Assembly (NCBI RefSeq): GCF_901538265.1
Contig: NZ_LR593886.1
Coordinates: 4,051,738-4,115,737, forward strand
Source: Gemmata massiliana
Lineage (GTDB): Bacteria > Planctomycetota > Planctomycetia > Gemmatales > Gemmataceae
Length of the DNA stretch: 64,000 nucleotides
Direction: 5' to 3'
Positions 40,351 through 45,983 of this stretch are shown one piece after another; position 1 is the stretch's first letter, and the number at the start of each line of letters is the position of its first letter. Below the pieces are notes generated by a model. It made no database searches. It was not told the origin of the DNA and saw only the letters and a program-made list of their open reading frames with translations. Made by a program: the position numbers and the translations under genes.

Positions 40351-41280
40351 CTGACTGTCCCATAGGGGTATTACGAGCTCTTTCGGTAGCGGAACGGTGC
40401 CTCGTCGTTGGTCGGGTGGAGGCGACGGAGCATGAGTCGGATCATGGCCAGCCGGACCATCGCCTCGCTCGACCGAATCGTCTTCTCCCGATCGACCGTC
40501 AGCCGCCGGCATCGCTTCAGCCAGGCGAACGTCCGTTCCACCACCCACCGCTTCGGCAACTTGACCCAGCCCGTCTCGCCATCGGGCCGGCGGACCACCT
40601 CGATCTCGTATCCCGCGTGCTGGGCGACCCAGGCGTACAGGCCGTGGTTGTGGTACTTGCTGTCCGCCCACAGCCGCCGCAGCCGGGGGAAGCCCTCGCC
40701 GGTGATCTTCGCCAGCACCGCCGGGGCACGAGTCCCGTCATCGTCGCTGGCGGCCGTGACCGCTACCGCCACGAGTAACCCGAGCGTGTCCACCACCACG
40801 TGTCGTTTCCGGCCGTTCACCTTCTTGTGGGCGTCGTACCCGCGTGCCTCTCCACCCTCACTGGCCGGGACCGACTGGGTGTCGATGCTCCCGGCCGAGG
40901 GCGTCGGCTCGCGGCCGCCGTGTCGGCGGACCTTCTCCCGCAGGGCGTCGTGAATCGCGTCGAGCGTGCCGTTGTGCCGCCACTCGTCGAAGTACCGCCA
41001 GGTGGTACTCTTGGGCGGGAACTCCTTCGGCAGGAACCGCCACGGGCACCCGGTCCGCAACAGGTAGAAGACGCCGTCGAGGACGTCGCGGGTCGAGGTC
41101 GTGCGAGGCCGCCCGCCCGGGTACACCGGGATGAGCGGCTCGACCAGGGCCCACTGCTCGTCGGTCACGTCACTCGGGTAACGCTGAGTTCGCATCCCCA
41201 TCCTACGGGACGGAGAGCGGCACCCGGATTCGCTGGCCGGCAAACAGGTTACTGCAAATCACCACATACGGGACAGTCAG
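40351..41280 (-). mobile_element. Intact IS5-family insertion sequence
   Basis: The ends are CTGACTGTCCCATA (left) and the complement of CTGACTGTCCCGTA (right), flanked by the 3-bp duplication TCA at 40348-40350 and 41281-41283, the T-N-A target of the IS427/ISL2-type branch. The unit is 930 bp with a single open transposase gene, so it may be active and recent. Confidence 0.9.
40371..41195 (-). CDS. IS5-family transposase
   Basis: An uninterrupted DDE transposase of 274 residues. The N-terminus is typical ('MRTQRYPSDVTDEQWALVEP', 'LIPVYPGGRPRTTSTRDVLD', 'GVFYLLRTGCPWRFLPKEFP'). Catalytic residues: Asp in 'TPSAGSIDTQSVPA', Asp in 'LRRLWADSKYHNHGL', and Glu in 'LPKRWVVERTFAWLKRCRRL' (the Y/W-R-x3-E-K-x6-K type C1 signature). 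Start ATG 41195 is within 90 bases of the right inverted repeat; ATG 41201 is possible. Unlike most transposases here it has no break, which suits the intact element ends. Confidence 0.93.
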   Translation of the reverse strand: MRTQRYPSDVTDEQWALVEPLIPVYPGGRPRTTSTRDVLDGVFYLLRTGCPWRFLPKEFPPKSTTWRYFDEWRHNGTLDAIHDALREKVRRHGGREPTPSAGSIDTQSVPASEGGEARGYDAHKKVNGRKRHVVVDTLGLLVAVAVTAASDDDGTRAPAVLAKITGEGFPRLRRLWADSKYHNHGLYAWVAQHAGYEIEVVRRPDGETGWVKLPKRWVVERTFAWLKRCRRLTVDREKTIRSSEAMVRLAMIRLMLRRLHPTNDEAPFRYRKSS

Positions 41281-41798: not shown

Positions 41799-43841
41799 AT
41801 GCCCCGCTTGACCGTGATTGAAAACCCGCCGAAGATTGGCATCTCACCAGCCCTGAACCATCGAGCCCATACGATGCACCCCGAACAATCGTTCGAGCAT
41901 GTACTCAGGGAAATTTCGGTCAACCGTGCCGATCCTTGCGAACTGATTCGCGAACTGATCTCGAACTCCTACGATGCAGGGGCGAGGAACGTGTACATTT
42001 CCCCCCTTTATCAACACCGCGGACTTCTGTACTTCGATGACGGCTGTGGGCTGTCCCAAACGGAAGCCGACAAGACGCGCGGCGTCCTGCCATACGTTGC
42101 GTTCTTTTCGATCGGCAAGGGTACGAAAACGGCGGGCAGCCAAATTGGGTACAAGTGCCAAGGGGCAAAGCTCTGCTTCGCCGCCAAGCGGTTCTCGCTC
42201 ATTACCCGATGCCGCGGCGAGGCGGCGTGGAGATGGAAAAGCATCGACAATCCGAAATCCACGCTGAATGAGAAATACGATATTAGTCCAGCTGAAACCA
42301 CCATGCCCTGGCAAACGTTGGCCGACAATATTTTGAAGGACGCGGACAACCTGACCCAACCGCTCCTCGAGCACTTTGCTGAGCCGTTCTTTCGAGGCTC
42401 TTTTCTCACCGGGCTGATGATCGTCATCCAGGACTTTGAGGTGGACGACTTCGAGAAATACTTCTCTCTCTCCAATCCACATTCGTACTTACTGGAGTAT
42501 GTGAAGCACTACACCGCTCATGCAGACGTGCGGCGCATCAGTAGCGAGCCGCACGGATTCCGCGATGCTGACGTGTTAATGCTTCAGGAGCACATAGCCT
42601 CAGCTCCAGTTTCTTTGCGTCTGTGGGTATCTGTAGATAAGCCCAGATTCGAGGTGGTAAGTGCGGGATGGCCGTATCTCGCGAAGCCAAAGGCTGGTTC
42701 GCCATACAGTGCTGCCAAATCACCCGAAGAAGTACCCCGCTTGCGTGATGGCACCTTCCATGCCCGCCACGCCGAGAGCTTCCGTCATGAGGGCCGCCTG
42801 TACAACCTAATTCTCGCAATCGATGGCAAGAGGCGTGCTTTGGACGAATACACCAACCTTAGCCGTCAGAACGCGACTCGGAGCGGAGTGAGCTTTTCGG
42901 ACCAACGCGGACTGATTTTGAGCTGTCTAGGCGTGCGCGTGTGTCAGTACAATCAGTTCTTCGATCACGCCGGTTTGGGCACGTGGCAAGATCTCAACAA
43001 GGCAATCGAACACTTTACGTTCTTCATCGACGGCCCTCTCGACCTAGTAACCAATCGCAACTACCCAGCACAGACGACGTTGACGCTTCTTCGGGACGCG
43101 AAATTTGTTGCCAAAGTCGTTGCTTTTCTGGATCGGGCAGCAAGCGACGCTAAGGGGACCGTGCTAAAAGAGCTTCTCAACCGGGTGAAACGGGAAGCTA
43201 CAGCTCACAAGGAAGAGGAGTACGTTGCCCAGACGCTCGCGCTTAAGACCGGTCTTGCTGCCCGCGCTCAGTTCTGTGCCGCTGTCCCCGATTGTACCCC
43301 ACTGTCAACTCGATGGTTCGTCGAGCCATCCCCCGGCGAGGAGCACTTTGTCGGTGCGCTCTACACGATGTTCGCTTCCGTTGTCGGAGCTAGCCATGCG
43401 CTTCAGAGCTACTGGACTCGTCCGTTGACCTTTAAGGCCCGCGGCATTGACGCGCTGGCTTGCGGCGACGAGGGAAGTTTCGTTGATCCTAAATCGACAT
43501 TGTGCATCGAGTACAAGTACAGTTTCACCTCCGACAACGAGTACAACCACCCGCTCACCGTGACGGACCGTATTGTCTGTTGGCACCTCGACGATCTACA
43601 AGAGGGCCTCACGGTTCAGGATTCATTCGGCTATCGGGCGAACGTTGGGAAAGCTATCGCGGCCGACGGAAAGAAAATCGGGGTCGAGCTCAACGACATT
43701 CGACACACGACTGGCGGCCGCGAGCGGGACAAGATAATCCCGGTCGTGTCGCTTCGGAATCTGTTAACGGCCTCGTTCGACGTTAAGTGGCGGCCACCAG
43801 TTATGGCACCGGACCCGGCGAAGAAAAAGAAGGCGAAGTAA
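41799..43841 (+). CDS. GHKL ATPase with probable PD-(D/E)xK nuclease end
   Basis: A 680-residue soluble protein with an N-terminal Bergerat (GHKL) ATP-binding fold: N box 'ELIRELISNSYDAGA' (Glu52, Asn56, Asp59), G1 box 'YFDDGCGLS' (80-84) and G2 box 'SQIGYKCQGAKLCFAA' (115-129), the last like MORC-type ATPases. The middle (about 230-430) is unassigned. Near the C-terminus 'RGIDALAC' (Asp551) and 'LCIEYKYSF' (Glu571, Lys573) have the spacing of a PD-(D/E)xK nuclease core, and the end is a lysine tail. An ATPase with a nuclease in one chain, GC lower than neighbours and a position beside an IS element all suggest a defence gene. No partner gene is adjacent on the same strand. ATP binding is near certain; the nuclease call is moderate. 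Confidence 0.75.
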   Translation: MPRLTVIENPPKIGISPALNHRAHTMHPEQSFEHVLREISVNRADPCELIRELISNSYDAGARNVYISPLYQHRGLLYFDDGCGLSQTEADKTRGVLPYVAFFSIGKGTKTAGSQIGYKCQGAKLCFAAKRFSLITRCRGEAAWRWKSIDNPKSTLNEKYDISPAETTMPWQTLADNILKDADNLTQPLLEHFAEPFFRGSFLTGLMIVIQDFEVDDFEKYFSLSNPHSYLLEYVKHYTAHADVRRISSEPHGFRDADVLMLQEHIASAPVSLRLWVSVDKPRFEVVSAGWPYLAKPKAGSPYSAAKSPEEVPRLRDGTFHARHAESFRHEGRLYNLILAIDGKRRALDEYTNLSRQNATRSGVSFSDQRGLILSCLGVRVCQYNQFFDHAGLGTWQDLNKAIEHFTFFIDGPLDLVTNRNYPAQTTLTLLRDAKFVAKVVAFLDRAASDAKGTVLKELLNRVKREATAHKEEEYVAQTLALKTGLAARAQFCAAVPDCTPLSTRWFVEPSPGEEHFVGALYTMFASVVGASHALQSYWTRPLTFKARGIDALACGDEGSFVDPKSTLCIEYKYSFTSDNEYNHPLTVTDRIVCWHLDDLQEGLTVQDSFGYRANVGKAIAADGKKIGVELNDIRHTTGGRERDKIIPVVSLRNLLTASFDVKWRPPVMAPDPAKKKKAK

Positions 43842-43890: not shown

Positions 43891-44190
43891 TCAATATAAA
43901 CAAATAATATTAAATTTAAATAAATATAAAATTGAAATGATGTCGCCGGATGGCGTGGACCTTTCGGGCGGATCCAAGACCCAAGTGGTGAGGATTACTG
44001 GATTTGTTTGAGCGATAATCTCAGCCCGAATCGCCAACTCGTCTGCCTGTGTGACTAGCGACATTCCAGAGAGTTTCCGCCGTACCGTCGAAGGGTTCCA
44101 CCCAAGCAAACGGGCGAGCTTGGTTTGCTCGCCCGTGCCACGTTCAACATTGAGTAAGTCGCAGGTTTTGCGCAGCTCGCCCGGCGTCAT
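43891..44190 (-). CDS. Small HTH protein coupled to rsr
   Basis: A 99-residue protein whose ATG 44190 overlaps the rsr stop (ATGA), so it is co-translated with the Ro60 gene. It begins 'MTPGELRKTCDLLNVERGTG' and contains a helix-turn-helix 'EQTKLARLLGWNPSTVRRKL' followed by 'SGMSLVTQADELAIRAEIIA', similar to XRE/Cro-type or transposon repressor folds. The C-terminus is AT-rich ('ISILYLFKFNIICLY'), coming from the low-GC convergent spacer, so the natural end may be earlier. It may regulate the rsr/Y RNA locus. Convergent with the GHKL gene. Confidence 0.65.
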   Translation of the reverse strand: MTPGELRKTCDLLNVERGTGEQTKLARLLGWNPSTVRRKLSGMSLVTQADELAIRAEIIAQTNPVILTTWVLDPPERSTPSGDIISILYLFKFNIICLY

Positions 44191-45560
44191 TCCTGTTCGG
44201 ATGCCTCGTATTGGGCGATGTACGTCAGCACCTTGTCGCTCCACCCGTCGATGTGGAGCCACTTCCGGTATCCGATCCCGTGCTTCGCACTCGCGACGTT
44301 GATCAGGTAGTTCCGCTTCCCGAACGCGTCCGCCGCTTCCGGCTTCAGCTTCGTGTCACAGTCCTGCTCGTCGGTCAGCACGATGATCCGATCCGCTTCC
44401 TTCTCCTGTTGACGGATGAACGCCATGCACTGCACAAGGAAGATCCCGCCGCCGCCGATCTTTCGATCGACCTCGCCCCCAATAATGTAGTCCGACAATG
44501 CGAAACCCCGGCGTGCCGGGATCGGCATGGTCGCATGGACCCGAGTCCCGTCGTCACCGGCGGTGCAGTAAATGGCGGCCTCCTCGCACACCTCGCGGGC
44601 CAGGATCGCTAACGCCGCCGCCACGTCCTTACGGCTCAGCTCCGACTTGGAGCTCAACCGCGCGCCCATCGAACCCGAGGTGTCGATCACCAGCACCGTT
44701 TTCCCCGGGAGCAGCTTCTGTCCCTCCAGACAGCGGAGCATCATCGGCTCGACCACGCCCTCCCACTCCGGGACCGCGCGGGCGGCCGCAACGAACTGGA
44801 ACGGCAGGATGCGATCGACCTTGGCCTTCTCGGCGTACTCGGCGACCACCTTCTGGCTCACGCCCGCCTGCTTCATGTTCCGAAGGTTCCGCAGGAACGC
44901 GAGCGCCCCCAGTTTGCCCTCGGCCATGAGTCGCTCGAACGCGGCCTTCTTGTTGGCCCCACCCGAGAGCGCGACCTCCCACGTATCCGGGGTCGCAAGC
45001 TCGCCCTTCACGAGTTTGCGCCATAGTTCCGCTTGCTCAGCCGACTTCGGCTTCGGGCGGGTGATGCGGATCGCGTCGCGCAGCTTCACGGCCTTCTGAC
45101 CGCCGTTGTACTTCGCGAGCTGGTACTCATCGAACCGGCGGAACGCCTCGCCGACGTGACGCTTGGCCTGCTTCGCCAGCGGCTCGTCCTTCCTGTCCTT
45201 CCAGTACAGGGCCAGGAACTCGGTGATGTCGTCGGCGCGCGCGAACACCTTCTCTGCAACGCCGCCGAACGCGGCCCGCCCGTCCTTGGTGCGCAGCATT
45301 TCGCGAGCGAGCAACAGCGGGGTGTGCCGCAGCTTCATGTCCACCTTCGCCTGAACCGCGACGCGCGCGACGTCGGCTGCGGGGAGCTGTTTCACCAGGT
45401 CCGTGATCCGCTGCCCGATGGACTGACCGTCCTCGTAGTGCTCGTCCTCCCACAGGAGGCACGACATGACCGACCGCTCCAACTGAGCGAGCGGGTCGAT
45501 ACGAGCAGCAACGGCACCTCCGTGGGTGTACTCGTGCTCGAGGCGGTTTACGGTGGCCAT
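44187..45560 (-). CDS. rsr: Ro60/TROVE-domain RNA-binding protein (Rsr)
   Basis: The bacterial orthologue of the Ro 60-kDa autoantigen, a ring-shaped RNA-binding protein that binds Y RNAs and guides exoribonucleases or RNA quality control. Its 457 residues comprise TROVE HEAT-like repeats at about 10-270 ('RIDPLAQLERSVMSCLLWED', 'VAVQAKVDMKLRHTPLLLAR', 'AFLRNLRNMKQAGVSQKVVA', 'ILPFQFVAAARAVPEW') and a C-terminal vWA domain with an intact MIDAS ('VLVIDTSGSMGARL', Asp-x-Ser-x-Ser). ATG 45560 is preceded by AAAGGAA; the extension to 45581 is unnecessary. It overlaps a downstream HTH gene. The Y-like RNA lies about 170 bases upstream on the same strand. No rtcB/rtcA is in the window. Confidence 0.93.
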   Translation of the reverse strand: MATVNRLEHEYTHGGAVAARIDPLAQLERSVMSCLLWEDEHYEDGQSIGQRITDLVKQLPAADVARVAVQAKVDMKLRHTPLLLAREMLRTKDGRAAFGGVAEKVFARADDITEFLALYWKDRKDEPLAKQAKRHVGEAFRRFDEYQLAKYNGGQKAVKLRDAIRITRPKPKSAEQAELWRKLVKGELATPDTWEVALSGGANKKAAFERLMAEGKLGALAFLRNLRNMKQAGVSQKVVAEYAEKAKVDRILPFQFVAAARAVPEWEGVVEPMMLRCLEGQKLLPGKTVLVIDTSGSMGARLSSKSELSRKDVAAALAILAREVCEEAAIYCTAGDDGTRVHATMPIPARRGFALSDYIIGGEVDRKIGGGGIFLVQCMAFIRQQEKEADRIIVLTDEQDCDTKLKPEAADAFGKRNYLINVASAKHGIGYRKWLHIDGWSDKVLTYIAQYEASEQE

Positions 45561-45624
45561 TGGGCGATTCCTTTCAAACAAGCGGGCCGGGAAGAAACGG
45601 AACGGGTACGGCTAGTGTTGGAAA

Positions 45625-45949
45625 CTAAGTAACCCGGACCTGCACCACGGCCTGTTGACGACGTGCGCGGGGAAGTAACGAGTCCAGCTTCTACTTACCC
45701 AATAAGTAAGCCGGGTCTGCACCACCGCGCGGGTGATTCAAGACCGGAGGGGGAAGAGGCGGCAAAGGAACGTAAGCGCTCTACCACTGAGCTACCGGCA
45801 GGTTGCCCTACCAGGCGGGGATCGAACCCGCGACCTCTCTCTTAAAAGGAGAAGTAACCCTTACCTGCACCACTCTCCGGGTAGATGGAGGGATGGGGGG
45901 AAACGCTGCCGGGTTCGCTTTTTCCATGCGTAACCGGAAACTGCACCAC
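45625..45949 (-). repeat. Four GTGGTGCAG...GGTTAC repeats upstream of rsr
   Basis: On the minus strand, GTGGTGCAG followed after four or so bases by a GGGTTAC-like run occurs at 45949-45929, 45873-45852, 45725-45703 and 45648-45625. The spacings alternate short, long, short. The tRNA-like RNA sits in the long interval. The last copy lies in the rsr leader. They could be Ro-binding stems of tandem Y RNAs or RNA-processing sites. Confidence 0.7.
45727..45873 (-). ncRNA. yrlA: YrlA-like bacterial Y RNA (permuted tRNA mimic)
   Basis: Read on the minus strand, the order is a canonical T arm (GCGGGTTCGATCCCCGC, 45831-45815), an acceptor 3' strand CTGGTAG (45814-45808), a 6-nt loop GGCAAC, an acceptor 5' strand CTGCCGG (45801-45795) that pairs with it at all seven positions allowing G-U, then a canonical D arm TAGCTCAGTGGTAGAGC (45794-45778). 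This is a tRNA with its ends moved to the anticodon side, exactly the fold known for the effector module of YrlA RNAs. The outer parts can pair (GAGAGG with CCTCTT) and would form the Ro-binding stem; the repeat GTGGTGCAG starts the 5' side. It sits upstream of rsr in the same direction. The transcript ends are estimates. Confidence 0.8.
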
Positions 45950-45983
45950 GTCCCAATGTAACCCGCCCTCGCGTCCTGAGTCA

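Follow-up and report, generated by a model that had tools for sequence, protein, structure and literature searches.

The region just upstream of rsr, a TROVE/Ro60 gene in the 64,000-nucleotide stretch of Gemmata massiliana DNA analysed here (the window), raises the question of what an RNA with tRNA-like arms might do beside an Ro60 gene. The element concerned, which we call element B (45744..45880, minus strand), very probably carries a complete circularly permuted tRNA, its anticodon arm included. On balance we lean towards reading it as a Y RNA partner of Ro60 whose effector end is this permuted tRNA and is probably a bait for a protein that reads anticodons. The arms, the common body, the linkage to TROVE, the compensatory pairing, the authentic loops and the fast change of anticodons are read directly from the DNA; the bait step, taken on its own, is tentative.

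As the preliminary description had stated, a TROVE/Ro60 gene lies downstream of element B on the same strand. The product of this open reading frame, rsr (44187..45560, minus strand), matches the Pfam TROVE profile at 61.5 bits (cut-off 23), and its match to the Ro60 vWA profile falls below cut-off. We took ATG 45560 as the start, the longest open reading frame beginning at TTG 45581. The genome has another TROVE gene (G000, C1:4978529-4979416, L311), which is nearer to the Pfam family, at 76.7 bits. The 3' end of rsr is overlapped by a 123-aa open reading frame with an HTH_8 match (43891-44262, minus strand) and a weak PADLOC match to CARF3 (E 0.0045), which is possibly an RtcR-like remnant or regulator. 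Convergent with rsr is a gene for a 680-aa protein with a sub-threshold HATPase_c_3 match (41799-43841, plus strand), and an IS4/5-type transposase lies close to the locus (40371-41243, minus strand). PADLOC gave weak matches here and nothing stronger.

Element B is bounded by an outer stem, CCGGAG...CTCCGG, so that its two ends pair as in Y RNAs in the broad sense. Read along the minus strand, the body motif GTGGTGCAG (45865..45873), common to its siblings, is followed by GGTAAGGG (45865-45858), which pairs with CCTTTGCC (45761..45768), the 3' strand of an inner body helix. The tRNA parts lie between these strands. They begin with an anticodon arm, TTCTC-CTTTTAA-GAGAG (45837..45853; as RNA, the 17-nt UUCUC-CUUUUAA-GAGAG), whose anticodon TTT (Lys) occupies 45846-45844 and which is backed by covariation and by a loop, CTTTTAA, identical to that of the host tRNA-Lys(UUU). 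Then come a 5-nt variable loop, AGGTC (45832..45836), and a T arm, GCGGG-TTCGATC-CCCGC (45815..45831), with five of five pairs. The acceptor stem, CTGGTAG / CTGCCGG (45795..45814; strands 45814-45808 and 45801-45795), has seven of seven pairs, including two G-U, and is capped by GGCAAC (45807-45802). U8-A9 (45794-45793) and the D arm GCTC-AGTGGTA-GAGC (45792-45778), together TAGCTCAGTGGTAGAGC (45778..45794), complete the set, all on the minus strand. The T arm, acceptor and D arm thus stand in the order that the preliminary description gave them. Its 6-nt loop closing the acceptor is present as six nucleotides, but these fold as one G-C pair and a GCAA tetraloop. A tRNA opened at the anticodon, as it had proposed, is not what we found: because the anticodon arm and variable loop sit 5' of the T arm, the predicted cloverleaf is complete and is opened between positions 26 and 27, that is, between the D arm and the anticodon arm. 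The folding energy of element B is modestly below that of shuffled sequences (z -2.08; 7 of 200 shuffles as good or better). A point against our reading is that RNAfold favours another hairpin register, at -58.1 kcal/mol versus -53.1 kcal/mol with the canonical anticodon arm.

Element B is one of about four elements upstream of rsr that have a common body, the shared frame being an outer stem, GTGGTGCAG, a few bases, GG-TACTT, a variable insert, TTCCC and the second half of the stem. Two of its siblings lie between it and rsr, element C (45665..45730) and, immediately before the gene, element D (45585..45652); both are short and have no tRNA module. Element A (45890..45954), likewise without a tRNA module, is degenerate and the weakest of the elements; all three are on the minus strand. 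When folded against shuffles, element A does no better (z 0.04), and elements C and D give z -1.88 and -2.36, respectively. Short Y RNAs without a tRNA domain form the YrlB kind, which elements C and D resemble as stem-loops beside rsr, but the body motif of C and D is shared with a tRNA-bearing element and no Rfam family exceeds its threshold in the window.

How element B relates to YrlA can be stated from the Rfam model (RF02553), which aligns its positions 24-84 of 114 to 45838-45775 with a score of 33.2 bits (E 2.6e-5, 731 bases searched), well short of the gathering score of 69 bits. The earlier assignment to the YrlA type is therefore not upheld in Rfam's sense. The Ro-binding motif of YrlA is GNCGAAN0-1G; reading through element B we found no CGAA, and hence no such motif. 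The resemblance to YrlA lies in the permuted module with its T arm-acceptor-D arm order, in the stem formed by the two ends and in being encoded with Ro60, whereas in element B the Y body does not replace the anticodon arm: the arm is there in full, the opening is at 26/27 and the body motif is another. The YrlA module is described as mimicking the D, T and acceptor arms (PMC8394870). The call of a Y RNA on the grounds of YrlA structure consequently stands as far as a Y-RNA-like, Ro60-linked element with a permuted mimic is concerned, but fails at the anticodon arm, which departs from the YrlA module. In the broad sense element B is, by its predicted structure, a bacterial Y RNA, and one that lies outside RF02553 as thresholded. 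An anticodon arm in a Y RNA is not described in those portions of the literature that our search covered, and priority over the principal bacterial Y RNA papers is unproved. Pairs of RF02553-like elements scoring up to 51.6 bits, below gathering, also occur at G000 C1:7198584-7198827 (L309) and G010 C1:1267739-1267996 (L310), the former far from both TROVE genes of its genome; five long open reading frames of these two stretches have no Pfam match.

Since Rsr was matched in only 7 of the 95 genomes in a search of the host's family (host included; one match is stop-broken and one partial), rsr is patchy in this family. The nearest relative, G022, whose named record is Gemmataceae bacterium CJuql4, has an Rsr that is 87% identical and at least three elements. 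The conservation that the preliminary description had proposed as a check is found there, the arms being kept through compensatory change and the acceptor being fully paired and GNRA-capped in both genomes. Near rsr, elements also occur in two Singulisphaera records, one Isosphaeraceae record and additional Gemmataceae genomes; the scans detected no element next to the stop-broken copy of rsr (L006) or next to the TROVE gene that viral contig L020 carries. A loose pattern matched 9 of the 392 genomes in a sample of the phylum, 8 of them once, and most of these matches are read as chance because the reversed pattern used as a control also gave matches.

We searched viral contigs for the DNA motif of the body; the resulting set is a sample among the matches listed. 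A closing-stem filter over all loci left 175 unique elements at 94 loci, a few of which look like chance matches, and none in shuffled DNA. Among the DNA-motif matches listed, TROVE was found above cut-off in 70 of 80 distinct viral records; in the other 10 no TROVE was found, which counts against our reading. These records represent the 82 viral loci of the closing-stem set, L019 excluded, all of which were tested, in batches giving 44/46 and 28/36 (two of the 36 repeated from the first batch, which included three records that had first come from a protein search, each with TROVE). None of 50 control records taken from loose-motif matches had TROVE, one of them (L026) also being among the 80; with this result and its many chance matches, the loose motif was rejected as an element finder. 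The DNA motif detects Ro60 loci where the Rfam YrlA model never reaches threshold (0 of 15 loci).

The anticodon arm recurs across these loci. Widening the scan yielded 249 unique elements, against 4 matches in shuffled DNA. A T arm is present in 101 of the elements, and the spacer that separates it from TACTT is most often 21-22 nt long (46/101), the length of an anticodon arm plus variable loop. When an anticodon hairpin is defined as a 7-nt loop closed by three or more uninterrupted pairs, it occurs in 44 of the 52 elements with a 20-22 nt spacer (mean 6.8 and maximum 16 in 1000 shuffles), and 41 of the 44 have U33 (shuffles: mean 2.0, maximum 7). However, the hairpin is missing in 8 of the 52, the remaining three hairpins have A33, and the 44 amount to 40 distinct arms that are partly related. 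Aligning 28 elements of identical spacing, we found the anticodon stem paired in 92.1% of cells, with changes on both sides in three of its five pairs (12, 6 and 3 cells), although the outer two pairs fail in 4/28 and 5/28 elements. Covariation over the anticodon and T stems together is 0.503, versus 0.157 in shuffles, none of 500 being as high. The loops look authentic as well: 21 of the 44 recur exactly in one of the 276 tRNAs that ARAGORN calls outside the elements, compared with 3.5% of shuffled loops. The anticodons include Ser GCU (8), Asn GUU (6), Thr UGU (6), Gly UCC (3), Lys UUU (3), Lys CUU (2), Glu CUC (2) and others; the calls in L206 and L081 may be one base out of register, the sole A36 being in one of these. 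As for the rest of the module in the 46 elements with a 21-22 nt spacer, a D arm was found in 38 (the script missed some visible D arms) and an acceptor stem in 33. Of these 33 stems, 31 pair at 6 or more of their 6 or 7 positions, and in 21 the cap is a GNRA or UUCG tetraloop, in some cases on one additional closing pair. L304 (2661 and 2836) and L249 (2105) have variable arms that are class-II-like or D arms of the Leu/Ser type, and the tRNA mimics of L002 (1294-1420) and L019 (4857-4980) read as opened in the D loop, their anticodon loop being changed (AGCAAT or UUCG).

Sister elements frequently carry different anticodons. Ranking pairs of elements by their identity outside the loop, and by that alone, we took the six that exceed 80%; the anticodon differs in four: Lys UUU in element B versus Gly UCC in G022, Asn GUU versus Thr UGU in L018/L019, Thr UGU versus Asn GUU in Xanthomonas phages 10KY502B/Olaya, and Pro UGG versus Thr UGU in L241/L250, where positions 36 and 37 changed together. 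Anticodon positions differ in 7 of 18 cases, the remaining loop positions in 2 of 24 and positions elsewhere in 94 of 871 (P 0.0017); the anticodon rate is about four times that of the rest, in a test based on few pairs. With four more orthologous pairs, two from CcrColossus-CcrPW and two, identical, from Gurke-Kikimora, the figures become 9/30 anticodon versus 106/1513 elsewhere (P about 1e-4); one added CcrColossus-CcrPW pair, Gln CUG versus Leu UAG, had been spotted by eye beforehand.

Because bacterial and phage relatives often differ in anticodon, these data suggest a bait for a reader of tRNA anticodons. On this reading, element B would be transcribed, its body would bind Rsr, and the Ro60 particle would present the tRNA end to a protein able to read anticodon loops. 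This reader would most likely be an anticodon nuclease, or else an enzyme that repairs the tRNAs so cleaved; by competing for it, the mimic would spare real tRNAs. The anticodon arm would then be a readable, testable address on the mimic. It is possible, though we hold this yet more loosely, that the tRNA mimics of planctomycete and many-phage Ro60 particles make up a swappable decoy array whose anticodons turn over under conflict, and phage conflict would bear only indirectly on an element of a bacterial chromosome. The armless YrlA has been suggested as a competitive inhibitor of an anticodon nuclease, but Salmonella YrlA was not cut by the DNA-damage nuclease (PMC7790460), and anticodon nucleases are believed to have shaped the tRNAs of phages (PMC10264068). 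The phage tRNAs that counter such nucleases (PMC10264068; for PARIS, PMC11455837) resemble the elements in that the anticodon loop is thought to be under changing selection, but they replace a lost tRNA, whereas the elements would not be chargeable as they stand. Among the siblings, many lack the tRNA module or the anticodon arm; the arm is therefore dispensable for whatever the array does, which argues against the bait reading. RtcB occurs in 4 of 49 records and adjoins TROVE in 3 of these 4 (a count made with no control set), its ligase gene lying beside TROVE in G532 (L019), G488 (L058) and G516 (L198); a general RtcB partnership was rejected on the 4/49 figure.

Among the other explanations, the one we take most seriously, while considering it unlikely, is an ordinary tether as in Deinococcus, in which the RNA connects Rsr with PNPase, the tRNA end acts as a scaffold only and the anticodon arm is a passenger picked up during the capture of tRNA parts. 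Such a role, in RYPER, is the published one for bacterial Y RNAs (PMC8394870). It also fits those T-arm elements (23 of 101, found in similar kinds of array) whose 9-18 nt spacer is too short or barely long enough for an anticodon arm plus variable loop, several of which have the classic YrlA pairing of 39-43 with bases after the D arm. A passenger, however, should not show compensatory pairing, authentic loops or faster anticodon change, and the last of these favours conflict over scaffolding. We regard it as improbable that the tRNA end instead serves as a substrate mimic for enzymes that modify the anticodon loop, or recruits them to the particle. Two such modifications are t6A37, made at U36-A37, and m1G37, made at G36-G37, and N36-N37 is indeed U-A in 27 and G-G in 8 of the 44 elements. 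U36 (27/44 versus 33.9% of 236 distinct ARAGORN tRNAs, P 1.8e-4) is in excess and A36 (1/44 versus 18.6%, P 1.3e-3) is scarce, relatedness inflating both the excess and the deficit. Yet real tRNAs tend to the same N36-N37 rule, so the bias may follow from loop mimicry, and the related elements are not independent. A rule based on t6A alone was dropped as the sole explanation because G36-G37 and C36-A37 loops occur. YrlA itself is reported to receive D and pseudouridine (PMC8394870), which speaks for the modification reading.

A permuted gene processed into a working tRNA-Lys is very improbable here, although the cloverleaf is complete and 21 ARAGORN tRNA calls, some clearly off register, overlap elements in relatives. 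Permuted tRNA genes are documented in algae and one archaeon, Thermofilum, in one case with a 1-nt intervening sequence (PMC3978253); they have the 3' part before the 5' part and a complete cloverleaf, as here, but differ in that our acceptors are tetraloop-capped, attached to a Y RNA body and associated with an anticodon that varies between sisters. A GNRA or UUCG tetraloop closes 21 of 33 acceptors, so that there is no room for a leader, a trailer, a discriminator or CCA and little to process into tRNA ends, and in element B a G-C-closed GCAA tetraloop takes the place of a removable sequence between the acceptor ends. Its acceptor stem is moreover unlike that of the host tRNA-Lys, ARAGORN called no tRNA gene in the window, and the host has ordinary tRNA-Lys(UUU) and (CUU) genes. 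That the array is only a cis leader controlling rsr expression, with no free RNA, we consider barely credible: it lies directly before rsr and a simple sigma-70 scan of it shows no promoter-like site (0.1 expected by chance), but Y-like parts are also found 3' of TROVE (crAss001) or on the opposite strand (L003).

Named phages provide further instances of such loci. A tblastn search with the host Rsr matched 92 phage records, from which 13 regions were taken and 12 examined (a Rhizobium phage was left out). In 4 of the 13 regions a submitted tRNA annotation just upstream of TROVE falls on an element: tRNA-Thr in Xanthomonas phage 10KY502B, tRNA-Gln in Caulobacter phage CcrColossus and, on elements with a variant body, tRNA-Ser in Brevundimonas phages Gurke and Kikimora. 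In a Microcystis phage, TROVE is preceded by a tRNA-Leu that resembles an ordinary tRNA. In crAss001, the elements after TROVE (L301 4680-5110) have the 5' acceptor strand and D arm first and the T arm and 3' acceptor strand last, so that their predicted structure is an unpermuted tRNA frame around Y-like parts.
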